64,000 bases of DNA. Origin: Symbiodinium sp. CCMP2592. Its lineage: Eukaryota; Sar; Dinophyceae; Suessiales; Symbiodiniaceae. Made by a program: the position numbers and the translations under genes. Position 1 is the stretch's first letter. Each line of letters starts with the position of its first letter. Below, in pieces: positions 590 to 63,531 of the stretch. The notes under the pieces were generated by a model. That model was given only the letters and a program-made list of their open reading frames with translations, did no database searches and was not told the DNA's origin. Where the stretch lies: the NCBI GenBank assembly GCA_905221615.1, contig CAJNDT010001280.1, positions 839,410 through 903,409 of the forward strand, in the 5' to 3' direction.

Positions 590-745
590 CGCTAAAACCC
601 TCTTAGACCCACAGCTTCCTTGATGATACGGTTTAGGGTTTCTGGGTTTGGGGTTTAGGGTTTAGGGGTTTAGGGTTTAGGGTTTAGCGTTTAGGGGTTT
701 AGGTTTAGGGTTCAGGGTTTAGGCCCTAAGCCCTAAAGCGTAAAC
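590..745. repeat. Interspersed telomere-type repeats (TTTAGGG)n
   Basis: Degenerate TTTAGGG heptamers with 8-bp GTTTAGGG variants, then a short CCCTAAA stretch in the opposite orientation. The run is short, imperfect and flanked by unrelated DNA on both sides, so this is an interstitial repeat, not a chromosome end. Confidence 0.85.
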
Positions 746-8555: not shown

Positions 8556-8633
8556 TGCTCTGCTACGCTCTGCGTACTCAGTGCGTCTGGGTTGTAGGTA
8601 CGCGTGTGCAAATCCTGGGGCCTTCTCCGAGGT

Positions 8634-8775
8634 CCCTAAGCCCCTAAACCCTAAACCCTAAACCCTAAGCCCCTAAACCCTAAACCTTAAACCCCTAAAC
8701 CCCTACATAAACCCTAAGACCCTAAACCCCTGAACCCCTAAACCCTATAAACCCTAAAACCCTACATAAACCCGA
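8634..8775. repeat. CCCTAAA array
   Basis: CCCTAAA and CCCCTAAA heptamers and octamers with occasional CATAAACCC spacers. The array ends directly at CCCGAG, the possible acceptor of the next exon-like island. Confidence 0.85.
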
Positions 8776-8776
8776 G

Positions 8777-8849
8777 GTCGCCCAGGAGTTGTTGGGATTG
8801 CGGAAGTCGATGAGCCTCTTGGAATCGGCCCCCTGGCAGATGCTCTCGG
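8777..8849 (+). other. Exon-like island (24 codons)
   Basis: Codons VAQELLGLRKSMSLL-ESAPWQMLS run from ACCCGAG| to CTCGG|GTTTGCC. Markedly coding-like composition against an intron-like background. The left border is a CCCTAAA array. No family recognised. Confidence 0.4.
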
Positions 8850-8859
8850 GTTTGCCCAT

Positions 8860-8943
8860 AGGCTCCATAAGAGTTCCTTTTTGGGATTGCCTTATAGGAT
8901 TCTTTGTATGAGCGAGCCCCAAAAAGGAACTACTATGGAGCCG
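8860..8943. mobile_element. HP4 hairpin element
   Basis: Arms GGCTCCATAAGAGTTCC and GGAACTACTATGGAGCC with the shared loop TTGCCTTATAGGATTCT. It starts 10 bp after the exon-like island. Confidence 0.85.
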
Positions 8944-8949
8944 ATGGGT

Positions 8950-9385
8950 AAGGGTTAGGATCTAAGGAGTGTAGGGTTTGGGGTTTGGGGTTTAAGTAGG
9001 GTGGAGGGGTTTGGGATTTGGGTCTAAGCAGTGTGCGGTTTGGGGTTTAGTTAGGGTGTATAGGGTTTGTTAGGATTTGTTTTTGTCTGGTCTTTGCGGG
9101 CTGTTTCCTCCACACTGCGTGGTACCCACGGTCAGCTGTACGGTTCGGGAGTCTGGTCTGGGAGTTGAGGTTAGGGGTGCACGGTATAGGGCTTGGGAGT
9201 TTGATTCAGTTTTTGGGTTTGTTCTTTTGAGGGTTCAGGTTCGTTTCGACTAATTGCTAAAGCCTCCCTGTTACAATTCCGTCCGTTAGATTATGTTGGA
9301 GGAACAGCCTGAACTGCACAATCCAATCCTAAAAACGCTACACTGTTGTGGCGCTTCTGTCTGCAAGCCATCTCAGCTTAAGCCC
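8950..9385. other. TTTGGGG-rich spacer
   Basis: Degenerate GTTTGGGGTTT repeats to about 9080, then unremarkable DNA. No gene seen. Confidence 0.45.
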
Positions 9386-9389
9386 CCGC

Positions 9390-9642
9390 ATATAAACCCT
9401 AAACCCTCCTAAACCCCTAAACCCTAGACCCCTAAACCCGAAACCCCTAAACCCTAAACCCTTAAACCCTAAACCCCTAAACCCTAAACCCCTAGACCCT
9501 AAACCCTAAACCCCTAAACCCTAAACCCCTAAACCCTAAACCCTAAGCCCCTAAACCCCTAAACCCCTAAACCCCTAAACCCTAAACCCCTAGACCCTAA
9601 ACCCCTAAACCCCTAACCCCCTGGACCCTAAACCCTGTTCCC
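9390..9642. repeat. CCCTAAA array, about 250 bp
   Basis: The longest uninterrupted telomere-type array in the window: heptamers mixed with CCCCTAAA octamers and point variants (CCCTAGA). It ends next to a pyrimidine tract (TTTGCTCTCCTTTTTTGAG) that precedes an exon-like island. Confidence 0.9.
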
Positions 9643-9662
9643 CTTTGCTCTCCTTTTTTGAG

Positions 9663-9716
9663 GCCATGATCGCCTGGTCCAAGTACGTCCCAGCGAGGGC
9701 CCCAGGATTCGCGCAG
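9663..9716 (+). other. Exon-like island (18 codons)
   Basis: After the polypyrimidine tract and TTTTTTGAG, exactly 18 codons read AMIAWSKYVPARAPGFAQ and stop at GCGCAG. The pyrimidine tract plus AG is a credible 3' splice site. Unknown product. Confidence 0.4.
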
Positions 9717-9730
9717 TCCCGGATTAGAGA

Positions 9731-9816
9731 GAGTTTAGGGTTTAGGGTTTAGGGTTAAGGGTTTAGGGTTTAGGGTTTAGGGGTTTAGGGTTTAGGGTTT
9801 AGGGTTAAGAGGGTTT
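9731..9816. repeat. (TTTAGGG)n
   Basis: About eleven TTTAGGG or GTTAAGGG units in the opposite sense to the array just upstream. The two arrays thus flank the 9663 island as an inverted pair. Confidence 0.85.
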
Positions 9817-9971
9817 GGGGTGTCTATAGCTCTTAGGGTTTTTAGCGTTTTGTTTTTTTTCGGGTTTTGAGGCTTTGGGTTCTTTTAGGATTTTGGGCTT
9901 AGGTTTTAATTACTGTAATCTTACAGGGTTTCTTCGGTACTCTCAGGCTTTTACAGTGTTGTGGGTCCCAA

Positions 9972-32773: not shown

Positions 32774-32794
32774 CCTTCAACCCCCTCAGAAGCC

Positions 32795-32925
32795 GAAAGC
32801 CCTAAACCCAAAAAGCTAAACCCTAAACCCTAAACCCCTAAACCCAAAAAGCTAAACCCTAAACCCTAAACCCCTAAACCCAAAAAGCTAAACCCTAAAC
32901 CCCTAAACCCCAAAAGCCCTTCAAA
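32795..32925. repeat. CCCTAAA array with AAAAAGCTAAACC inserts
   Basis: A higher-order unit of telomere heptamers plus CCCAAAAAGCTAAACC repeated three times (about 44 bp each). Confidence 0.88.
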
Positions 32926-32951
32926 CCAAAGCCGAAGTTTCCTTCAGAAGG

Positions 32952-33002
32952 CGGGCGATCGTATCATCGGACTTTTGGGCTTGCCCTCGGGCTTCTGGGC
33001 CC
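32952..33002 (+). other. Exon-like island
   Basis: After TTTCCTTCAG, codons KAGDRIIGLLGLPSGFWAQ. The pyrimidine-rich acceptor is good. It is sandwiched between a CCCTAAA array and a TTTAGGG array in inverted orientation. Confidence 0.35.
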
Positions 33003-33009
33003 AACTACG

Positions 33010-33165
33010 GTTTGGGGGTTTAGGGCTCAGGGGGTTTAGGGTTCAGGGGGTTTAGGGTTCAGGGGGTTTAGGGTTTAGGGTTCAGGGGGTTTAGGGTTTA
33101 AGGTTTAGGGTTCAGGGGATTTAGGGTTTAGGGTTTTAGGGTATAGGGTTTAGGGTTAAGGAACT
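33010..33165. repeat. TTTAGGG / TTCAGGGGG array
   Basis: GGGTTTAGGGTTCAGGGG units, five or more copies, opposite strand sense to the array at 32,795. Confidence 0.88.
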
Positions 33166-52339: not shown

Positions 52340-52830
52340 GAGGGGAATTGGGGTGTTGGGGGTTTAAGGGTTTTGGGGTTTGGGTTTTAGGGTTAAGGAG
52401 TTTAGGAGTTATAGGGCTGAGGGTTTAGGGTGAGGGGAACAACCCGGCCCTATGGTTAAGATAGGGCCTGTTCAAGGTATCCGCCTTTTGGAAGTGTTTG
52501 GATGGGGCTTACCTAGTTAAAAGAACACGACCCCAGAGACCCAGCAGAGCATGTAGGAGAGACTAGTTGCAGAGGGTTTTCCCTGCAGTGTTTCAAGTGC
52601 GACTTCGGATTATATTTGGCTCAAGAAAAAGAAGGGCAATGCAGCTAGATGCCCTGGTTCTTTAGAGGGTTGGCCGGGTTTAAGTACCTTCCTTCCCTCT
52701 TGATTGGTTATCAGCCGTAGCTCTTTGTTTCCTTTGGTTTCCTACTTGAACCCGGCCGCAGGGTTTTAGTGGTTCTTCCCCCTGCCATAGCAAGAGCGCA
52801 GCCTTAGGCGCGCTGGTGGGCAGATTGCTA
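52340..52830. other. Transition to GC-rich DNA
   Basis: Telomere-type words stop at about 52,440. From here to 60,260 no HP-family hairpin and few TTTAGGG words occur, a clear change of sequence landscape. Confidence 0.6.
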
Positions 52831-52834
52831 GTGG

Positions 52835-52854
52835 GGTGCTGCCTTGTGCGCACC
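52835..52854. repeat. Bulged palindrome GGTGC-T-GC-CTTGT-GC-GCACC
   Basis: First of the series. It lies in the non-coding DNA 10 bases before the ATG of the next ORF, so these palindromes are not confined to coding sequence. Confidence 0.85.
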
Positions 52855-52863
52855 GGCTAGCAT

Positions 52864-54222
52864 ATGCCACCAAAGGGCGAGGCACCTGCCGGAGACAAAC
52901 CCTACAGAGGGGGCCGCGCAGGAGCGAAGAGGAGGAAGCTTCACTTTTACCAAGCGCAGGACGCGCTGATCCAGCTTGCTGAGACGGTACAAGATATAAT
53001 CGTGCAGAGGAGGAGCTTTGAAGACGTTACCGAGGCCCACTACGACACGATTATAAGGTTCGGCCAGATTACAGAGCAAGTCGACGTATATCACCCTGTG
53101 TGGGCAGATTTGGTCGAGTACTATCCTGAGTTGTGGACTGCTTTTTCGGACGTCGCGGAAGAGCCTGCCACTGGGTCAGGAGCTCGCTGGAGGCCGAAAG
53201 CCGCAGCAAAGGCAGCTGGGTCGGGGGGTGCTGCTTCAAGCGCACCACAGGAGGAGGAGCAGCCAGCCGAGGAAGCGTCAGGCGCGCCCGCCGAGGGTGC
53301 AGCCCCTGGCGCACCGGCGCAGCCGCCCACACCTCCGAAGGCGCCGGCTCTTGGAATAAGGGGACCCACGCGGGACCTTTATTACAGGGGCCGGAGCGAC
53401 CCACTGAGGCAGAGGAGGGTGCCAGCAGAGCCAGAACAGATCATTGAAGACACTGGCGCGAGAGCATCATCCGAGCCACCGGCTGCCGAGGGCGAGGTGG
53501 ATCTGTCCAGAGCCGGCGGGAATCCGGCAGAAGATTCCCTGCGATCTGCCAGGCGCGTCCGCACCCCGCCGGCGCGGCGAGCGCAAGAGGAGGCACGCCT
53601 GGAGGAGCTTAGGCTCCGCGGCTCGGTGTTTGCCTCTTTTAGGGACGCCGAAGACGCGGAGCCCGAGCAGACAGCCGGCGAGGAGGAGACCGAGGAGGTA
53701 GAGGTAGAGGTCGAGGTTGCCCAAGGTGACGACCGGGGTGCTGCCGAAGGCGCACCAGACGACGAGCCAGCAACCGAAGGCCGACAGGCAGAAGGCGCCG
53801 AGGAGGAAGAGGCAGCAGAGGAAGACGAGGCAATAGACGTGCACCCTGCCTCGGAGGCAACAGTTTCTCCAGCCACCTCGGAAGCCGCAGCCCCAACGCG
53901 AGAGATCCGTGTGAATCTTGGCAGGGGCCGGGGTGTGACCCGCAGGCCACTTATCCTTGCACCTCCCACCGAAACCTTCCCAACGGTTCGGGTTGATAGT
54001 CAGGGTGCTTGGGTTCGGGTTAGGGATTCCGGTGCGGTTCCCACCTTTCAGCGTCGTGCCGTGCCCCCCCCGAGGGTGCAGCGCACCGCGCACCAAGGGG
54101 ACGCAGAAGAAGCCCTAAGTGCACCCGATCCGTTTGATCTGCCAGACGACGCGTGGATCGATCCCAGCTCCTACCGGGAGGTCTACACAGCTAGTGGGGT
54201 TCCTATAGGGGTGTGTCCGTAG
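52864..54222 (+). CDS. Low-complexity ORF, probable 5' part of a HAD-like-domain gene (452 codons)
   Basis: The N-terminus (MPPKGEAPAGDKPYRGG...) is basic. Residues 25-100 look globular and helical (FYQAQDALIQLAETVQDIIV...YHPVWADLVEYYPELWTAF). The remainder is Ala/Glu/Pro-rich with an acidic ETEEVEVEVEVAQ stretch, and it ends in DPFDLPDDAWIDPSSYREVY. Three copies of the 20-bp palindrome are read in frame as GAASSAP, GAAPGAP and GAAEGAP (53,227, 53,296 and 53,737); a fourth at 54,075 is out of this frame, next to an eight-C run. Coding-like sequence continues downstream in other frames, so either introns or frameshifts follow. No domain recognised. It resembles the N-terminal parts of dinoflagellate retroelement-associated ORFs, by impression only. 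Confidence 0.5.
   Translation: MPPKGEAPAGDKPYRGGRAGAKRRKLHFYQAQDALIQLAETVQDIIVQRRSFEDVTEAHYDTIIRFGQITEQVDVYHPVWADLVEYYPELWTAFSDVAEEPATGSGARWRPKAAAKAAGSGGAASSAPQEEEQPAEEASGAPAEGAAPGAPAQPPTPPKAPALGIRGPTRDLYYRGRSDPLRQRRVPAEPEQIIEDTGARASSEPPAAEGEVDLSRAGGNPAEDSLRSARRVRTPPARRAQEEARLEELRLRGSVFASFRDAEDAEPEQTAGEEETEEVEVEVEVAQGDDRGAAEGAPDDEPATEGRQAEGAEEEEAAEEDEAIDVHPASEATVSPATSEAAAPTREIRVNLGRGRGVTRRPLILAPPTETFPTVRVDSQGAWVRVRDSGAVPTFQRRAVPPPRVQRTAHQGDAEEALSAPDPFDLPDDAWIDPSSYREVYTASGVPIGVCP
53227..53246. repeat. Bulged palindrome, in frame (GAASSAP)
   Basis: GGTGC-T-GC-TTCAA-GC-GCACC. The type specimen of the series: a 5-bp outer stem, one-base bulge, 2-bp inner stem and 5-base loop. Confidence 0.9.
53296..53315. 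repeat. Bulged palindrome, in frame (GAAPGAP)
   Basis: GGTGC-A-GC-CCCTG-GC-GCACC, bulge A. Confidence 0.9.
53737..53756. repeat. Bulged palindrome, in frame (GAAEGAP)
   Basis: GGTGC-T-GC-CGAAG-GC-GCACC. Confidence 0.9.
54075..54094. repeat. Bulged palindrome, out of frame
   Basis: GGTGC-A-GC-GCACC-GC-GCACC; the loop itself repeats GCACC. Confidence 0.8.
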
Positions 54223-54266
54223 CGCGCATAGACACCAGCTTTTGCGAAGAAGAGACAAGGCAGCGG

Positions 54267-54286
54267 GGTGCTGCCTCAGGCGCACC
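54267..54286. repeat. Bulged palindrome (GAASGAP)
   Basis: GGTGC-T-GC-CTCAG-GC-GCACC, in the frame of segment 2. Confidence 0.9.
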
Positions 54287-54546
54287 GGCAACACCTAGGG
54301 CACCCCCACAGAGGCGACCGTTCCAGCAGGGAGAGATCGTTGAGGCCGAGGTGGAAGAGACAGCGGCCTTAGGCCAGCGGTGGCCCGCGACACCTGAGGG
54401 AGAGCCTCCAACGAGGCGCCCCCGTGTGGTCCTTACCCCCGCTTCTAAGGCACCCGGTGTCCCCACCGCAGCCAGCGCACACTCGCCTCCGAAGGCCAGG
54501 CCCAGGACAGCCGAGGCAAGCACAGGCATAGGTCAGGCCAGGCGAG

Positions 54547-54905
54547 GTGCAAAGGCAGAGCCAGCGCACAAGAACCCCGCGCCGGGCAGAAGCAGCTCCC
54601 CCAAAGGGTGCTGCACAGGCGCACCGGGGTCGAGGGCGCAGCGGGTCGTGGCCACCCAAGCGGCACGCATCTTCTTCACCAGAGGGTGCAGCTTCTGAGG
54701 GCGATTCCCCAAGGTCACGCGCACCGGTGACGAAGGAGAGTCTGCCAAAGGCACGGCAACCACAGCCGAAGCTTCCCTCAAAGGTGCCTCCGACCGATAA
54801 GTACGGGGTTAGGTATAAGTCGCCTCCTGCGCCAGCGCCGCCCACGCCAACGGGGTCGGCAGCAACAGCAGCATATAAGGGCCCGCCCCCACTCCGTGTT
54901 TGTGG
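54547..54905 (+). pseudogene. Segment 3, frame shifted
   Basis: Reads ...ASSSPEGAASEGDSPRSR-APVTKESLPKA..., including a palindrome with an enlarged loop (54,685-54,725). Continues LPSKVPPTDKYGVRYKSPPA up to about 54,900, after which coding potential passes to another frame. Confidence 0.4.
54607..54625. repeat. Bulged palindrome with 4-base loop
   Basis: GGTGC-T-GC-ACAG-GC-GCACC, 19 bp. The missing loop base shifts the reading frame through the element. Confidence 0.85.
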
Positions 54906-55039
54906 CCAATATCAGCAGGGGAGGCCAAGAGCAGCCCAAGGCGAGCACAAAGGCTCCACCGCCGATCGTCACAGGCAATCGTCAGAAGCTAGCGTACCAC
55001 GCTTGGGCGCAGCAGACGCGTGACGAGGAGAACGCCGAG

Positions 55040-55059
55040 GCCGCAGCTTCAAGCGCGGC
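55040..55059. repeat. Palindrome with exchanged arms (AAASSAA)
   Basis: GCCGC-A-GC-TTCAA-GC-GCGGC: the same bulge, inner stem and loop as 53,227, but both outer arms changed so that pairing is kept. Confidence 0.8.
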
Positions 55060-55080
55060 GGCTGCCAGTTCCTCGCAGAG

Positions 55081-55099
55081 GGTGCTTGCTACGCGCACC
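55081..55099. repeat. Degenerate palindrome
   Basis: GGTGC-TTGCTACGC-GCACC; outer stem kept, inner stem lost. 22 bases after the 55,040 copy. Confidence 0.65.
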
Positions 55100-56429
55100 G
55101 AGGCCACTATTGTATTCGACTGGCACCACGTCTTGGACAAGGCCTGGATCGAGTCCAGAGGTGCCACCTGGGACACCAAGCCTGGTTCCCACGGGTATTT
55201 CAATACTGAATTTGTGGCCGCGCTAAAGGAATTCTGCGAGGAACACAAGCCACTGCGATTGGCAATTCTGAGTTACAGCACGCAATCCACCGCTCCTTGG
55301 TACCGCTTCCACTTCCTCGAGGAGGCCCTAGAGTGCTTAAGGGTGGCGTTGCCTTTGAGCATCAACCTTAGCATTCCAAGAAAGGCCGTTCGACATCATA
55401 AAGCGCTCTTTGCGTCAAACGACCGTATGGAGCATTTTTCGGTTTTGGACGATATATAAACAGATTTGTCGAGTTGCGTGAAATACGTGACGAAAACCGA
55501 ATAAAGACAAACTCGATTGGATTTGTTTTGACAACAACCAGGAAAATTGGATTTGAGTGAAGTTTAAATACTTAAACGGACGACCAAGCCAGATGACTCG
55601 ACAAGCAGGCTTACAAATTTTCAGAAAGCATGACTGGCGAGATGCAAAAGATCCCGCTCGATATATGACAACGACGAACACATGCGTGCCAATATGTATA
55701 CGAACACTCACAGAGCAGTACGTCGGCTGCAGACTTTTCCTCGCAGCACTCACGACATGTCGGTTCCGACCCAACGGAGGGCGGTTAGCAGGCAGTAATG
55801 CTGCAAGGCCCGCAAGCTCATGGTGCGAGGATGCGAGTGCTCGACGATCCGCCTCAGATCAAAAGGCAAACCTGATGCGTGAAATCATGCGTGAAATCTT
55901 GTGTGCGAATTACATATATGCGCGAGATGAAATTATGCATGCATGTACAGGCGAATTGCTTGCACTTGCCGATGAGATCCTCATCGAGGAAACAACTGTA
56001 GTAGCGGGACATGCATCGAACTTGCGACCCCAAAAAGCCTGGCGTAAGCCCTAAACCCAATCCTAAACCCTAAACCGTCAAGCCTCAACCCTCAACCCGA
56101 AACACTTCAGCCTAAACCCTAAACCCTTAAGCCTAAACCCACCCCAAACCCTAAACCCTGAACCTTTTAGCCTGGCTCCGCCCTTTTGCCGATCGCACGC
56201 GCTGCATATTTTCATCGGAACATGGCGGGTGAAGCTTCTAGTCCGAGAGGATTGCAGCCATAAGTGGTGCACCCCTTCAGTTTCTGCTTAAGAGCAGGGT
56301 CTTCTGTGTCTGTCATGGACATTCTTGCATGAGGTCGGCCCGGCCTCAGAGCAGACATGAACGTGGCAAGTTCACACCCAGGACTTTTGAGGTATATTTG
56401 GAAAAAAAATTACAAAAATGTATGTTTTT

Positions 56430-57080
56430 GAACTTCACGCAATTTCACGCCCAGTCGGTCGTATAGAGCGCTCTATGTAGTGAATTTCACGCAATTTCAC
56501 GCAATTTCACGCCCACTGGTTTTTGACGATCTCGAAAAACCCAGGGATTTTCAGGGTTGCATTTGCCGGCCACATGAATTTCACGCAATTTCACGCCCAA
56601 AAGGCTGCCGAGCTGCAATTTCACGGAATTTCGCGGCCCTTATAATATAGCCGAGCTGCAATTTCACGGAATTTCGCGGCCCTTATAAGTGCTGAGCTGC
56701 AATGTATTTAACGGGCCGAGCTGCAATTTCACGGCCTCGAGTTTCGCGGAATTTCGCGGCCCGGAGCTGCAATATATAACTGGCCGAGCTGTAATTTCAC
56801 GGAATTTCGCGGCCGTGCTATAGCTGAGCTGCCAGAAATGTCGCGGTATGTAACCCGAGCTGCAATTTCACGGAATTTCGCGGAATTTCGCGGCCCTGTG
56901 CGGAGCTGCAATATAACGGGCCGAGCTGCAATTTCACGGACTTTCGCTGCCCTTATAAGTGCTAGCTAGCTTACAAGCCGAGCTGCAATTTCACGGAATT
57001 TCGCGGAATTTCACGGAATGGAACGGGCCGAGCTGCAATTTCACGGAATTTCGCGGCCTAAGGCCGAGCTGCAATTTCAC
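56430..57080. repeat. GCAATTTCACGGAATTTCGCGGCC repeat field
   Basis: Irregular tandem copies of CCGAGCTGCAATTTCACGG and GAATTTCGCGGCC, separated by short variable spacers (CTTATAAG, TATAACTGG, TGTGCGG). The left part starts with the related AATTTCACGCAATTTCACG. About 12-15 units. Confidence 0.9.
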
Positions 57081-57453
57081 GTATAGCCTGGGGTTTGGGC
57101 TGATCTATTAACACATACATATATGCAGATCGAGTGAATGCCGTCATGAGTGCCATTGTAAAGAAATGACCGGTTCAGGTTTCGGGCTGCTACTCCATGC
57201 GTGCTGTTTAAATTTTCGAGCCTTTAAAATCTACGGTGCGTCGCGTCTGTGCATCCATCTCACGAGCAGCAGAACTGACGTGCATGCATGCCAGTCCGTC
57301 GAAATCCGAGACGATCGCCAAGAAACATCTGTCGAAACGGAAAAAACGAAGTTGATAACAGAACCTGCATGCATGCCAGTCAGTCTCCAAATATTATAAT
57401 CGAATCCGAGACGATCGCCAAAAAACATCTGTCGAAACGGAAACAAACGAAAT

Positions 57454-57454
<1 letters not shown>

Positions 57455-57490
<36 letters not shown>
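57455..57490. repeat. (TA)n microsatellite
   Basis: About 17 TA units. Confidence 0.95.
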
Positions 57491-57492
<2 letters not shown>

Positions 57493-57544
57493 TTCCGACT
57501 TATAGCCAAAATGCGCTCTATAAGTGCGCCCCTTAAGTGCGCCC

Positions 57545-57832
57545 CTTGACGTCGACCGACCTTTCTTGGTTGGGCAGACGTACCAGCGCACAGGACCGGA
57601 CGGAAAAGCGCAGCAGTTGTGCCAGATAGTGCCGCCAGCAAGCGTCGTGATCGACGACAACCGAGGCATTATCAAGGAGTGCGCCAAAACCGGCGCACTC
57701 ACGGTACAGGCTCAGAAAGGAGGAGGCGTCGACCAGTTGATCTACGAGCTCAACCAGGCAAGTGCTCTGATCAGGCGCCGTGGGCGCAGCGGTGCCCGAG
57801 GGTGCCGCTCCAAGCGCACCGGGCCACCTTAG
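57545..57832 (+). pseudogene. HAD-like domain, C-terminal half
   Basis: DVDRPFLVGQTYQRTGPDGK, then ASVVIDDNRGIIKECAKTG, with the acidic pair of HAD motif IV (IDDN), then GALTVQAQ. It plausibly completes the domain begun at 55,100. After NQASALI the frame decays; the neighbouring frame carries GAAVPEGAAPSAPGHL with a palindrome at 57,801, showing another frame change at about 57,770. Retains no start of its own. Confidence 0.45.
57801..57820. repeat. Bulged palindrome (GGTGC-C-GC-TCCAA-GC-GCACC)
   Basis: Variant with C in the bulge position. Reads GAAPSAP in frame 3. Confidence 0.85.
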
Positions 57833-57844
57833 TGGTTTAGTGCT

Positions 57845-58283
57845 TTGGGTTTTGTAGCGGTTGCAAACGTCAGCTCCCTGCCTATCGGAAGGCCGCCGGT
57901 TCAGCGCAACACCTCCTTTCGCAGCGCCCTAGGGTGCTGCCTGTGGCGCACCGGGCCGGGTAACAGGTCTAGGGCGCATTGTGGTTTTAGTGCTGGGTGG
58001 TGGTCCTTAGGGGTATTGTACGTTACTTTTGCGTGTGTGTGCTGCATTTTGCGCGCAGCCGTCGGCACACACACTTCTTTCAGAGACGCTTGGCGCCCAA
58101 ACGGGCCAGCCACCGCGTGCGTACCAGTCACAAAAGTCTTTTCGAGAGTGGTTGCGTGAGGGGTCCTGTTTTCTTGCCCCCTCCCTTTTGCCCTAAGGTT
58201 CTTTTGGGGATTCTTTCGGGTCCCGGCCGATAGGCGGTTTTCGTAGACAGGGTTCAAAGGCTCAAGCTTCAGGAGGTGAAGCC
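57845..58283. other. Spacer upstream of the Gag-like ORF
   Basis: GC-rich; contains one palindrome and no supported gene. Possible leader or promoter of the Gag-like gene. Confidence 0.4.
57933..57952. repeat. Bulged palindrome (GGTGC-T-GC-CTGTG-GC-GCACC)
   Basis: In the spacer between the HAD remnant and the Gag-like ORF, preceded in frame by a TAG. Both this copy and that at 57,801 are followed by GGGCC and, after unequal spacing, by GTGGTTTTAGTGC-like sequence, so a larger segment may be duplicated. Confidence 0.85.
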
Positions 58284-60254
58284 ATGTCAGGCATCTCCCC
58301 ACCATCAGAAGACCGAAGCCGAAGCCGGACATCAGGGGAATCCTCCTTTAGCGACCCAGAGCTTTTTAGCGGCCAGGCCTTGGTCCCGGCAGCAGCAACC
58401 ATTCTTAGGATCCGCGAACCAGCCCCCACACCACAAAGGAATGAGGGGTATAGCTCGTCCTCCGCGGCGTCTCCCCCACAAAGGGGTCCCGAGCTTAGCG
58501 CAACCTTTCTTGCAGGTGCCGCCGTGACACACGCCCATCACGCCTCCGGCGTTGCCTTGGGTGCTGCGTCCCTCGCGCACCAGGCTGCAGAGAGGGAACA
58601 GCAAACAGTTACTCAAGCTAGGGAGGCCGTAATGCAAGCTAGCTTTCAAGCTGCAGCGGCCGAGGCACAGTACCGCGACGAGGCCCAGACGATTGCACGG
58701 GCTGCGCAGGGTATCGTGGATGATGCTAGGTATCGAGAAGCTAGCCTTAGGCAAGAAGCCCAATCCGCCATTGACGCCACCACTCGTGAGGCTCAACAAC
58801 GGGTCTCAATGATTCAAGGTGAGGCCCAGCAAGCCATAGCCCAAAGCAACCATTCAGCACAAGCTAGAATAAGGTTAGTTGAGGGTGAGGCTAGGGGTTT
58901 ATCAGAAGCTCTCCGGCAAGCCAGTTTGGCACGGGAGCAGGCTGAGGTCGATAGGCAGGAAGTGGTCCAGCGTTTGCGCCAACGTGACGCTGATATCGTG
59001 AGGCTAGCAGACGAGATGGAGTCGATGCAGCGGCGTCGCGAGGAGGCAATGGCCGTCATGGCCGAGCGATACCGTGATCTGTCTGCTAAGTTTGTGGAGA
59101 GTAGCAACGCCCAAGCGCAGCGAACCCCCACAAGAACCCGTCTCTCTTTTCCGGGGATGTCTTTCTCCCCGGACACAAGCCAAAATGATGCGGTCCAACA
59201 ACCCACAACCCCTGTGATCGAGCCAGTGCCTGAGGAACAAGAGACCTTAAGCACCCCGCTTGTCGCACAACCAACAGGCGAGAGCGATGCGCCCCAAGAG
59301 GGTGCAGCCGCTGGCGCACCAGGGGGGGAGGCCAGCTCAGCGTCTCCCGAAGATCCACAGCCTATTTCGGTAGACCAAAGGGTTGATGAATTGGCTAAGT
59401 TGGTTTCCGATCTAGCGAAGTTGGTCGCAGCTAGTGCCGCGCAGTCTGGTAGTGCAGCCGCGCCTTCGGGTGCAGCCCCAAGCGCACCAGCAGAAGCACA
59501 GTCCGACCCACCACCTCAGGTACCCACGTTGAACCTAGGAGGCACCGCTCAAGTTACAGCGCCACCAGGCTCACCAGGATCAGGCGGATCATCCAGCTCA
59601 TCGTCCTCATCTGATTCCTCAGCAAGGTCCGAGCACCCAGCATGTAGGATGTGTGGTTCTAAGAAACACGCAGAAGAGGAGTGCCCAGAGCTCACCTGCA
59701 ACAAAGATGGAGGTGATGATCCAGCCCCTGACGGTGATGGGGCCGCAGCTTCAAGCGCGGCGGCTCCGAAGACCAATGCAGAGCTTGAGGAGGACACCAT
59801 CAGAGTGAAATCGCTTTCTGATTTACCCTTCCCAAACCCGCCTCAAAACGCAGCGCAAGCGAGAGGGTTTGTGAATCAGACCTTGATGGCCATTGGAAAG
59901 CTCCAGAAGACCCCAGGCGACGAGGTGTACATCTGGGCACAAGACTGCCTAAAGAAGGAGCCTGCCGCACTTTGTAAGGATGGGCGCTTCCCTCGCCTTG
60001 ACCGCGAGATCGCCGCTAAGCTTATCAAAGTGTGTCGCCACGGTCGCTTCGGGTTGCTATTCCAGCAGATGGTTGAGTCTGAAAGGCTTAAGTCGGGTGG
60101 CATGCCCAATGGGCGCTGCATGCTGCGCGCCATATACAGTCACTTCCAGTTGGAACGTGATCGTATGGGTATGTTAGCGGAACGTAACCTCCTGAACATT
60201 AGGATCGGAGGGGACCCAGAGGACCGCCGATTGAAAAAAATCAAGCGGGATTGA
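58284..60254 (+). CDS. Gag-like protein with zinc knuckle (656 aa)
   Basis: Starts MSGISPPSEDRSRSRTS after a CAGGAGGTGAAGCC context. Residues about 95-275 are a long Ala/Gln/Arg-rich coiled coil (REQAEVDRQEVVQRLRQRDA). 300-450 is Pro/Ser/Ala-rich with palindrome-encoded GAAAGAP and GAAPSAP (59,301 and 59,469); GAASLAHQ (58,560) lies in the coil. C454-R-M-C-x4-H-x4-C is a CCHC knuckle. Residues 530-650 (RGFVNQTLMAIGKLQKTPGD...FPRLDREIAAKLIKVC...MLRAIYSHFQLERDRMGMLAERNLLNI) form a compact helical domain that I associate with capsid/Gag regions of dinoflagellate retroelements. No protease, integrase or RT follows; AT-rich repeats begin right after the stop. It is either an isolated or domesticated Gag or a 3'-truncated element. 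Confidence 0.6.
   Translation: MSGISPPSEDRSRSRTSGESSFSDPELFSGQALVPAAATILRIREPAPTPQRNEGYSSSSAASPPQRGPELSATFLAGAAVTHAHHASGVALGAASLAHQAAEREQQTVTQAREAVMQASFQAAAAEAQYRDEAQTIARAAQGIVDDARYREASLRQEAQSAIDATTREAQQRVSMIQGEAQQAIAQSNHSAQARIRLVEGEARGLSEALRQASLAREQAEVDRQEVVQRLRQRDADIVRLADEMESMQRRREEAMAVMAERYRDLSAKFVESSNAQAQRTPTRTRLSFPGMSFSPDTSQNDAVQQPTTPVIEPVPEEQETLSTPLVAQPTGESDAPQEGAAAGAPGGEASSASPEDPQPISVDQRVDELAKLVSDLAKLVAASAAQSGSAAAPSGAAPSAPAEAQSDPPPQVPTLNLGGTAQVTAPPGSPGSGGSSSSSSSSDSSARSEHPACRMCGSKKHAEEECPELTCNKDGGDDPAPDGDGAAASSAAAPKTNAELEEDTIRVKSLSDLPFPNPPQNAAQARGFVNQTLMAIGKLQKTPGDEVYIWAQDCLKKEPAALCKDGRFPRLDREIAAKLIKVCRHGRFGLLFQQMVESERLKSGGMPNGRCMLRAIYSHFQLERDRMGMLAERNLLNIRIGGDPEDRRLKKIKRD
58560..58581. 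repeat. Bulged palindrome with 7-base loop
   Basis: GGTGC-T-GC-GTCCCTC-GC-GCACC; read as GAASLAHQ within the Gag-like coiled coil. Confidence 0.8.
59301..59320. repeat. Bulged palindrome, in frame (GAAAGAP)
   Basis: GGTGC-A-GC-CGCTG-GC-GCACC. Confidence 0.9.
59469..59488. repeat. Bulged palindrome, in frame (GAAPSAP)
   Basis: GGTGC-A-GC-CCCAA-GC-GCACC. Confidence 0.9.
59742..59761. repeat. Palindrome with exchanged arms (AAASSAA)
   Basis: Identical 20 bases to the 55,040 copy although it lies in a different ORF 4.7 kb away. Confidence 0.85.
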
Positions 60255-60289
60255 AAATTCTCAGCGTTTTGATTGTGTCGATCAAATTC

Positions 60290-60485
60290 AATAGAAAACG
60301 ATCTTTTTCAATAGAAATTTAAATCCTCAAAATCAATAGAACTGCGACATAAAAATCAATAGAAACCTCCACATCAAAATCAATAGAAAATCTCCATAAA
60401 ATCAATAGAAATTTTCCATAAAATCAATAGAAATTTTCCATAAAATCAATAGAAATTTTCCATAAAATCAATAGAAATGTTATCT
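60290..60485. repeat. ATCAATAGAAATTTTCCATAAA tandem repeat
   Basis: About eight copies of AAAATCAATAGAAA, of which the last four carry the full 22-bp unit with TTTTCCATA. It begins about 40 bp after the Gag-like stop codon. Confidence 0.9.
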
Positions 60486-60534
60486 CAAATCAAACGAGAA
60501 ACACTTCTGACATCAATAGATTTCAGCGCTATCT

Positions 60535-62808: not shown

Positions 62809-63531
62809 TTAGACACTGTACCTCCTGGCGAGCTCCACAGCAACAGGCATGAAATGCCTGATTCGCCTGCCCTTCTGGTGCTTGAGGCAAGGGTACTCAT
62901 TGGCACTGCTGGCAATGTCAGACTTCCATTTCAGGTTCGGCAACCTGGTGCCTGAAGGAATGCCTAGCTCCTGGTAGATTTCCTGGATTTCGGCATTCAG
63001 GCAACTCATGTTGGTGTCCCTGGAACCTGGCTTGGAGTCTTCGATGATCTCCCAAAGCAGATTCCCCACCACATGGCAGGACACACCGAGGTCCAGGACG
63101 TGGAGGACGTCAAGCTTCAAAGCCTGAGCATTGACGCCTTGGACCTGGAAAAGCGGGTGCTCCAGCCTGGCTTCCAGCTGCCTTGGCCTGAGTGTTGTCC
63201 TTCTCCAGCCTGCTTCCTGGCGAAAGTCGTTCCAGCAGTTCTCGCCCTCTTGGGTGCAAGCGCACCAAAGGCAAGGGTTGGCTTGGTTCGGCCTGGGGAA
63301 CTTGAATTCCTGGTAGAAGAACTCCATGTCCCCTGTGATGCAGTAGATCACTCCTGGCCTGAACCGCCTGGAGGTCGTTGGGCACCTTCCTGAGGCCATG
63401 GCTTGGAGGGACTCGCAGAGCTTGGTCCAAAGATCTTCCATGAGCTTGGGCGTGATGCACGACTTGGGAATGCAGGCCAGCAACAATTGGCTGCTTGCCT
63501 GGACTGCGAAAGCAAAAATTAGAGACACCAA
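62809..63531 (-). CDS. Transposase-like gene, central exon
   Basis: SQLLLACIPKSCITPKLMED...RPGVIYCITGDMEFFYQEFK...NPCLWCACTQEGENCWNDF...LKLDVLHVLDLGVSCHVVGN-LLWEII...SSANEYPCLKHQKGRRIRHF. The pattern GDxEFF...PCLWC...LDxLHVxDLG...GNLL matches, in my memory, a gene family abundant in Symbiodinium-type genomes and reminiscent of CACTA/Plavaka (Tnp2-like) DDE transposases, with the D of GDMEFF and LDVLH as candidate acidic residues. The acceptor at the upstream end is TTTTGCTTTCGCAG (about 63,505), so the first nine codons of the open frame (MVSLIFAFA) are probably intronic. Identity moderate to low. Confidence 0.5.
   Translation of the reverse strand: MVSLIFAFAVQASSQLLLACIPKSCITPKLMEDLWTKLCESLQAMASGRCPTTSRRFRPGVIYCITGDMEFFYQEFKFPRPNQANPCLWCACTQEGENCWNDFRQEAGWRRTTLRPRQLEARLEHPLFQVQGVNAQALKLDVLHVLDLGVSCHVVGNLLWEIIEDSKPGSRDTNMSCLNAEIQEIYQELGIPSGTRLPNLKWKSDIASSANEYPCLKHQKGRRIRHFMPVAVELARRYSV
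63253..63266. repeat. Short palindrome GGTGC-AAGC-GCACC
   Basis: A 14-bp form of the bulged palindrome, lacking the inner stem, within the transposase-like exon on the opposite strand. Confidence 0.55.

Follow-up and report, generated by a model that had tools for sequence, protein, structure and literature searches.

Repeated bulged hairpins, probably acting as RNA, in a putative Ty1/copia-type retrotransposon clade of Symbiodinium

INTRODUCTION

Rickettsia palindromic elements are palindromes of which some copies are read in frame in proteins. Hairpins also recur along the genomes of RNA viruses: PMC6281560 describes the packaging motif of phage MS2 as having an xYA loop and a bulged A on its 5' side, and presents dispersed packaging signals as a proposed aid to assembly in MS2 and other RNA viruses. 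In the copia-type element Ty1, a cis-acting RNA structure tied to Gag occupies one 5' region that includes a pseudoknot (PMC8396678). Here we analyze a 64-kb stretch of the Symbiodinium genome (contig C1280, positions 839410-903409; hereafter the window), in which a bulged palindrome of 20 nt recurs within a damaged long terminal repeat (LTR) retrotransposon, probably of the Ty1/copia type. The carrier organism is a coral-symbiont alga. An earlier reading of the window (the original prediction) took the palindrome to be either a very small mobile or gene-converting sequence, tolerated in disordered protein regions, or an RNA or DNA structural signal.

Our results support the last of these alternatives. 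The palindromes share a single orientation and one geometry, their stems change in a compensatory manner, and the stems are constrained between copies of the element. The motif almost certainly forms a paired single-strand structure and very probably acts as RNA. We propose that it is a family of RNA hairpins constituting an intrinsic, cis-acting part of one Symbiodinium clade of probable Ty1/copia type, possibly read by Gag for packaging, and we regard the case for this proposal as a whole as evenly balanced. The hairpin structure itself is well supported; the protein that reads it we infer.

RESULTS

Hairpins in the window

A scan of the window with the pattern GGTGCWGC-N(3-8)-GCGCACC returned 11 exact matches, all on the + strand and at positions already reported, compared to none in 100 dinucleotide shuffles, which bears out the claim that the motif is real and far above chance. 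Because the covariance model derives from a sister copy of the element, its window matches arise partly by construction; it gave 18 + strand matches at E ≤ 0.35, all inside 52795-60131 (Table 1), and the only others at E ≤ 5 were two weak echoes, on the reverse strand, of two sites from this set. The list of copies in the original prediction proved incomplete, having missed the compensated stems AGCGC/GCGCT (52795), GCCGC/GCGGC (55040 and 59742) and TGTGC/GCGCA (58038), as well as a doubtful GGCGC/GCGCC (60112). The bulge at 57801, given there as A or T, is C. The long-loop variant at 54685-54725 scores only E 0.35 and is doubtful; the sequence at 55081 (GGTGCTTGCTACGCGCACC) is indeed degenerate but was not found by the hairpin model, and the supposed degenerate form at 63253 (GGTGCAAGCGCACC), which has no GC-bulge-GC core and also escaped the model, has been dropped. 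Some copies do lie in noncoding DNA, as had been claimed, one before the start of open reading frame 1 (ORF1; 52835) and one between the ORFs (57933). Most coding copies are read in one frame as GAAxxAP, but those at 54075, 57801 and 58560 yield VQRTAHQ, GCRSKRT and GAASLAHQ.

Architecture of the hairpins in an undamaged copy

A copy of the element on contig C280 is undamaged and 11,970 nt (~12 kb) long, with two LTRs of 212 nt that are 100% identical and a short target duplication, CTAAT, flanking it on both sides. Its ORF1 encodes 950 aa and its gag-pol frame 2612 aa. From 90 nt past the 5' LTR to 77 nt short of the 3' LTR it carries 28 hairpins of one architecture, G-NNNGC-W-GC-(mostly N5)-GC-GCNNN, consisting of a lower stem of five pairs, a single bulge on the 5' side (U in 21, A in 7), two invariant G-C pairs, in most cases a third pair that covaries, and a short loop. 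The lower stem is confined to five pairs, since the base at -1 is G in 27 of the 28 sites and the base at +1 is never C. Stems are exact in 25 hairpins, and nine outer-pair forms occur (GGT/ACC, GCC/GGC, AGC/GCT, TGT/ACA, GAG/CTC, GGG/CCC, AGT/ACT, AGG/CCT and AAT/ATT); the other three hairpins have GGA with a terminal G-U pair (two sites) or a terminal mismatch (one site).

A count of the sites in C280 that join an exact five-pair stem to the GC core, with a 4-7 nt loop, gave 25 on the sense strand and 0 on the antisense strand, against a mean of 0.44 and a maximum of 4 exact-stem sites in 500 dinucleotide shuffles. When 7-bp stems interrupted on the 5' side by a single bulged base were counted for six bulge positions, only the position after pair 5 was enriched (29 sense, 0 antisense), and the other five gave 1-7 sites each. 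Because scans of this kind select for pairing, we sought tests free of that bias. In a search for the core only, three outer Watson-Crick pairs accompanied 25 of 30 distinct sense cores, compared to 0 of 5 antisense cores. The loop-closing pair, which was not used in finding the sites, forms in 22 of the 25 hairpins with 5-nt loops, whereas the shuffled mean was 9.7 and 0 of 20,000 shuffles reached the observed number. Viral contigs, in which no relatives of the element were found, supplied 62 loci with a single match each, about the chance level, and served only as a loop control. The closing pair forms in 13 of these 62 chance matches (Fisher p 8e-9), loop base 3 is a pyrimidine (Y) in 27 (23 of 25 in C280), and loop base 4 is A or U in 39 (again 23 of 25 in C280). 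The covariation score, from an alignment of 24 rows in which one of two identical 20-mers was entered once, was 0.415 compared to 0.114 for shuffled data and was lost when partners were slid, although it is biased in that the outer pairs had been found by pairing. None of 4227 Rfam families matched a 14.7-kb stretch of C280 at gathering score. In keeping its pairing on the sense strand, and in its fixed bulge and loop preference, the motif resembles RNA hairpins that proteins bind.

Conservation of the stems between copies

Ten sites were compared in 14 copies of the element (rows). Variable positions made up 4 of 140 in the stems (2.9%), compared to 23.6% of 1183 in the flanks and 21.9% of 32 in the inner loop. 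In coding stems 1 of 15 third codon positions was variable, compared to 416 of 1130 elsewhere (p 0.014). Four kinds of stem change were seen between copies, three leaving a G-U pair and one a mismatch. A second family of the element (family 2; 9.4 kb, one copy), whose gag is ~46% identical to that of the first, has GGTGC/GCACC at a homologous site where family 1 has GCCGC/GCGGC, so that two pairs have been swapped on both sides with compensation; three family 1 copies carry a T-G pair at one of the two exchanged pairs. In family 2, sites that keep four or more of the lower pairs number nine on the sense strand and zero on the antisense strand; six of the nine read GGGC-A-GC.

A site for a dimeric DNA-binding protein was considered and rejected because the arms change together, rather than each keeping one half-site sequence.

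The structure might instead act in single-stranded DNA, in cDNA during reverse transcription or in cruciforms, where it could, for instance, provide template-switch or recombination points that also multiply the hairpins. Three pairs of C280 hairpins (2203/6229, 4631/4842 and 4020/6681) have 25-37 nt in common, flanks included, as would be expected if short stretches were copied from place to place in the element. They hint that new hairpins arise by such copying, and the gene-converting spread suggested in the original prediction may hold for some copies. We nevertheless consider action as single-stranded DNA improbable, since three of the four kinds of stem change produce G-U pairs, which suit RNA, and since the conserved loop letters and fixed bulge indicate a protein reader.

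The same conservation bears on the idea that the peptide Gly-Ala-Ala-x-(Gly/Ser)-Ala-Pro is itself selected, as a linker or cleavage motif, and that codon usage then produces the palindrome. In 52 relatives no repeated 7-residue pattern ranks above GAAxxAP. Among 81 relatives, with 75 distinct, nonredundant GAAxxAP contexts, residue 4, which lies inside the loop, is of 11 kinds, and residue 5 is G, S or R in 74 contexts and D in the remaining one. An NGC codon, as dictated by the stem, would encode G, S, R or C at residue 5; the summed share of these four among all residues is 23.5% in the first 29 GAAxxAP relatives. Synonymous shuffles of both C280 ORFs gave a mean of 1.34 and a maximum of 6 sites compared to the 18 coding sites observed, so that codon-usage expectation is exceeded. 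Along with the conserved third codon positions in the stems, this speaks against selection on the peptide, which is further contradicted by the 9 of 28 hairpins that are noncoding and by the coding hairpins read in more than one frame, including VQRTAHQ and GAASLAHQ. We give this explanation almost no weight.

Range of the motif in the genome and in related elements

Across the genome (1.1 Gb, 5383 contigs), the GGTGC-type motif with loops of 4-8 nt was matched 290 times, compared to 4 matches of a reversed control. With a 5-nt loop there were 228 matches compared to 1, a count made with the reverse complement of the motif and carrying no test of orientation. Of 100 matches listed among the 290, 85 fall in arrays of 2-14 per contig, the contigs being ones that carry members of one retrotransposon clade, and 15 are single, 11 of these having loops other than 5 nt. 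The GGGGC-type motif gave 35 matches compared to 1 in the control, 33 of them on element-copy contigs and with the element's loops. Two matches of the form GGGGCAGC-N5-GCGCCCC (C69:681537 and C5373:1367281) do not have the loops of element copies. A matching hairpin array recurs on other contigs, and the LTR was matched 41 times genome-wide, with 15 contigs having at least two matches. An internally deleted copy (L110; ~83-86% identity to C280, 94% between its LTRs) and a diverged 3' end (L111; ~75% identical) each retain several hairpins, an observation that is supportive, not decisive.

These results leave little room for a very small mobile palindrome that inserts in frame in the manner of Rickettsia palindromic elements, tolerated in disordered regions. 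Copies in different ORFs and in noncoding DNA do have the hairpin in common, as such an element would predict. Between copies of the retrotransposon, however, no clean empty site of 20-21 bp was found in the 140 cells formed by 10 sites and 14 copies: gaps occurred in only four cells, two of them lying outside the aligned slice of the window, one within a 129-nt deletion of the window copy and one a partial deletion that took half a hairpin. Moreover, the hairpins keep a single orientation in C280, have varied, compensated stems, are denser in noncoding DNA and, among the matches listed, are bound to one element clade. Unlike the Rickettsia elements, then, this 20-nt motif shows no sign of mobility and is not spread over unrelated genes (85 of the 100 listed matches in element arrays; 33 of 35 for the GGGGC type). 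Such a mobile palindrome is accordingly a very remote prospect.

A more serious alternative is that the RNA is read by another protein, either a host RNA-binding protein or the element's own ORF1 product, for export, localization, stability or translation and not for packaging. The structural evidence fits any protein-binding hairpin. Site density peaks in the two untranslated regions (UTRs), 5' and 3', and between the ORFs; C280 has 9 hairpins in 914 noncoding nt and 19 in 10,632 coding nt, a noncoding density ~5 times higher. Use by the host on host mRNAs was not seen, inasmuch as only 15 of the 100 matches listed were single and 11 of those had other loop lengths, although this is not decisive. 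We view a reader of this kind as rather unlikely, while giving it more weight than the other alternatives.

The carrier element and its surroundings

The C280 gag-pol is a single frame that contains, besides a CCHC-like knuckle and a CCCH-like finger, LWDTAAGRHLIG ahead of YVDDL, which may reflect the gag-PR-IN-RT-RH order and the reverse transcriptase of copia-type elements. Three Pfam matches fell below their cut-offs, to RVT_2 (E 0.0014), to a CCCH finger (E 0.007) and to a CCHC knuckle (E 0.017), and no levivirus-type coat-protein family was present among the Pfam matches of the ORF1, gag and gag-pol parts. One relative bears the name GIP. Source names were available for 4 of 12 relatives of the ORF1 part, and every one was Symbiodinium. 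The C-terminal conserved domain of ORF1 (window 52864-57830 and C280 ORF1; FDWHHVLD ... IIDDNRGIIKEC) had no Pfam match. It is present in family 2 and, in a remoter version, in a distant copia-like locus, L106 (FIDFHQCLD ... LVDDH), and we take it to be reminiscent of HAD-type folds.

The window copy has been broken twice, by an insert at ~55375-57571 and by a second after ~60214. At the first, C280 position 4358 corresponds to window 55374 and 4360 to 57572. This 2.2-kb insert is perhaps a DNA transposon; it also holds an array of GCCGAGCTGCAATTTCACGGAATTTCGCGG-type repeats. A tandem 22-nt repeat, AATCAATAGAAATTTTCCATAA, borders the second insert at 60281-60490. The remaining pol and the 3' LTR lie beyond the window, pol resuming past the second insert at contig position 914475. 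Directly after the 5' LTR, at the junction, stands TTGGTTATCAG, which we presume to be primer-binding-site-like. Scattered, degenerate, telomere-like TTTAGGG/CCCTAAA repeats are contig-internal, at window positions 600-720, 8630-9860, 32790-33160, 52340-52440 and 56040-56175.

Table 1. Hairpins and other features of the damaged retrotransposon, in window coordinates
Feature	Positions	Strand	Evidence or remarks
5' LTR	52515..52705	+	Last 91 nt (52615-52705) identical to C280 LTR; 5' limit by eye
Hairpin AGCGC.A.GC.CTTAG.GC.GCGCT, 5' UTR	52795..52814	+	Covariance model E 6e-4
Hairpin GGTGC.T.GC.CTTGT.GC.GCACC, 5' UTR, ahead of ORF1 start	52835..52854	+	Pattern and covariance model
ORF1, 5' part	52864..54222	+	452 aa open; C280 homologue 950 aa; frame broken downstream
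Hairpin, loop TTCAA, peptide GAASSAP	53227..53246	+	Pattern and covariance model
Hairpin, loop CCCTG, peptide GAAPGAP	53296..53315	+	Pattern and covariance model
Hairpin, loop CGAAG, peptide GAAEGAP	53737..53756	+	Pattern and covariance model
Hairpin, loop GCACC, other frame, peptide VQRTAHQ	54075..54094	+	Pattern and covariance model
Hairpin, loop CTCAG, peptide GAASGAP	54267..54286	+	Pattern and covariance model
Hairpin, 4-nt loop	54607..54625	+	Pattern; covariance model E 0.05
Long-loop form, doubtful	54685..54725	+	Covariance model E 0.35
Hairpin GCCGC.A.GC.TTCAA.GC.GCGGC, compensated stem	55040..55059	+	Identical in 13/13 copies with sequence there
Insert interrupting ORF1, foreign to element	55375..57571		2.2 kb; imperfect 35-nt inverted repeats near ends
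Hairpin, C bulge, loop TCCAA, peptide GCRSKRT	57801..57820	+	Covariance model
Hairpin, loop CTGTG, between ORFs	57933..57952	+	Pattern and covariance model
Hairpin TGTGC.T.GC.ATTTT.GC.GCGCA (one T-G pair), between ORFs	58038..58057	+	TGTGC/GCACA in 12/13 other copies
gag part of gag-pol ORF	58284..60254	+	CCHC-like knuckle; cut by second insert after ~60214
Hairpin, 7-nt loop, peptide GAASLAHQ	58560..58581	+	Pattern and covariance model
Hairpin, loop CGCTG, peptide GAAAGAP	59301..59320	+	Family 2 homologous site: bulge T, loop TCCTA
Hairpin, loop CCCAA, peptide GAAPSAP	59469..59488	+	Pattern and covariance model
Hairpin GCCGC.A.GC.TTCAA.GC.GCGGC	59742..59761	+	Family 2 homologous site GGTGC.T.GC.TTCCA.GC.GCACC
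Doubtful hairpin GGCGC.T.GC.ATGCT.GC.GCGCC, capsid-like coding	60112..60131	+	Outer stem unpaired in C280

DISCUSSION

The element is the unit that carries the hairpins, and its likeliest reader is therefore an element protein, Gag being the obvious one. The full-length sense RNA would display ~28 copies of one putative protein-binding site, each offering its reader a loop of the type N-Y-A/U. Gag, with its CCHC-like and CCCH-like zinc fingers, could recognize these hairpins and so pick out the element's own RNA, assembling on the array over the whole molecule, as coat protein does on MS2-type hairpins, and marking it for packaging. Hairpins within coding regions would be tolerated in low-complexity linkers and would therefore leave Gly-Ala-Ala-x-(Gly/Ser)-Ala-Pro as a by-product. 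A part for the hairpins in Gag binding and packaging seems to us about an even prospect. Only tentatively do we suggest the fuller scheme, in which a retrotransposon Gag came to RNA-guided particle assembly on ~28 cognate hairpins independently of the single-stranded RNA phages, the array having spread and turned over within the element without loss of pairing.

The hairpins resemble operators of the MS2 type in being short, in having one bulged 5' base a few pairs below a small loop, in loops that end in Y-A or Y-U, and in occurring in several copies along the sense RNA. They differ in that the combination of a 5' bulged A and a 4-nt ANYA loop is not what is found: the bulge is mostly U and loops are mostly 5 nt, so that the hairpin has a 3-pair upper stem with a triloop (or 2 pairs with a 5-nt loop), and its ~28 near-perfect copies reside in a retrotransposon. 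As in the dispersed packaging signals of RNA viruses (PMC6281560), many sites (28 here) share a sequence-structure motif over one genomic RNA; here, however, the sites are near-perfect, repeated and in a retrotransposon, and their capsid binding is putative. The Ty1 packaging region offers the parallel of a copia-type element with a cis RNA structure tied to Gag, although it is a single 5' region with a pseudoknot (PMC8396678), whereas the Symbiodinium element has repeated hairpins throughout.

Several observations weigh against our proposal. In four more distant copia-like loci (L106-L109) the covariance model found no hairpin, and none of their sites had four lower pairs, bare sense cores numbering 3 and 2 on C3 and C5086 among them; the motif is therefore not needed by such elements generally. 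The spacing of the hairpins in C280 is irregular (29-1727 nt), and allowing loops of 3-9 nt admits one unrelated antisense match in that copy. Folding in context is partial, with mean pair probabilities of 0.55, 0.43 and 0.36 at spans of 30, 60 and 100 nt and values above 0.5 in 15, 10 and 8 of the 28 hairpins, respectively. The CCHC and CCCH zinc-finger matches fall below Pfam cut-offs, and evidence from other species is at the protein level only. Ty1 Gag, for its part, has low specificity in vitro, according to PMC8396678.

Titles and opening lines of abstracts among the literature matches listed described no such hairpins in a retrotransposon, which does not prove their absence from print. 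To our knowledge, no retrotransposon with an array of this kind has been described.

The way in which retroelements select their own RNA from among that of the cell is still unsettled, and dispersed packaging signals are disputed, since those known from viruses are degenerate and not easily separated from chance. The signal proposed here is near-perfect, present in ~30 copies and covarying, with many natural loop and stem variants, so that a single protein and a single short RNA would suffice to test the idea. For those who annotate these genomes there is also a warning, in that the repeated peptide GAAxGAP in these proteins may be mostly the shadow of an RNA structure.

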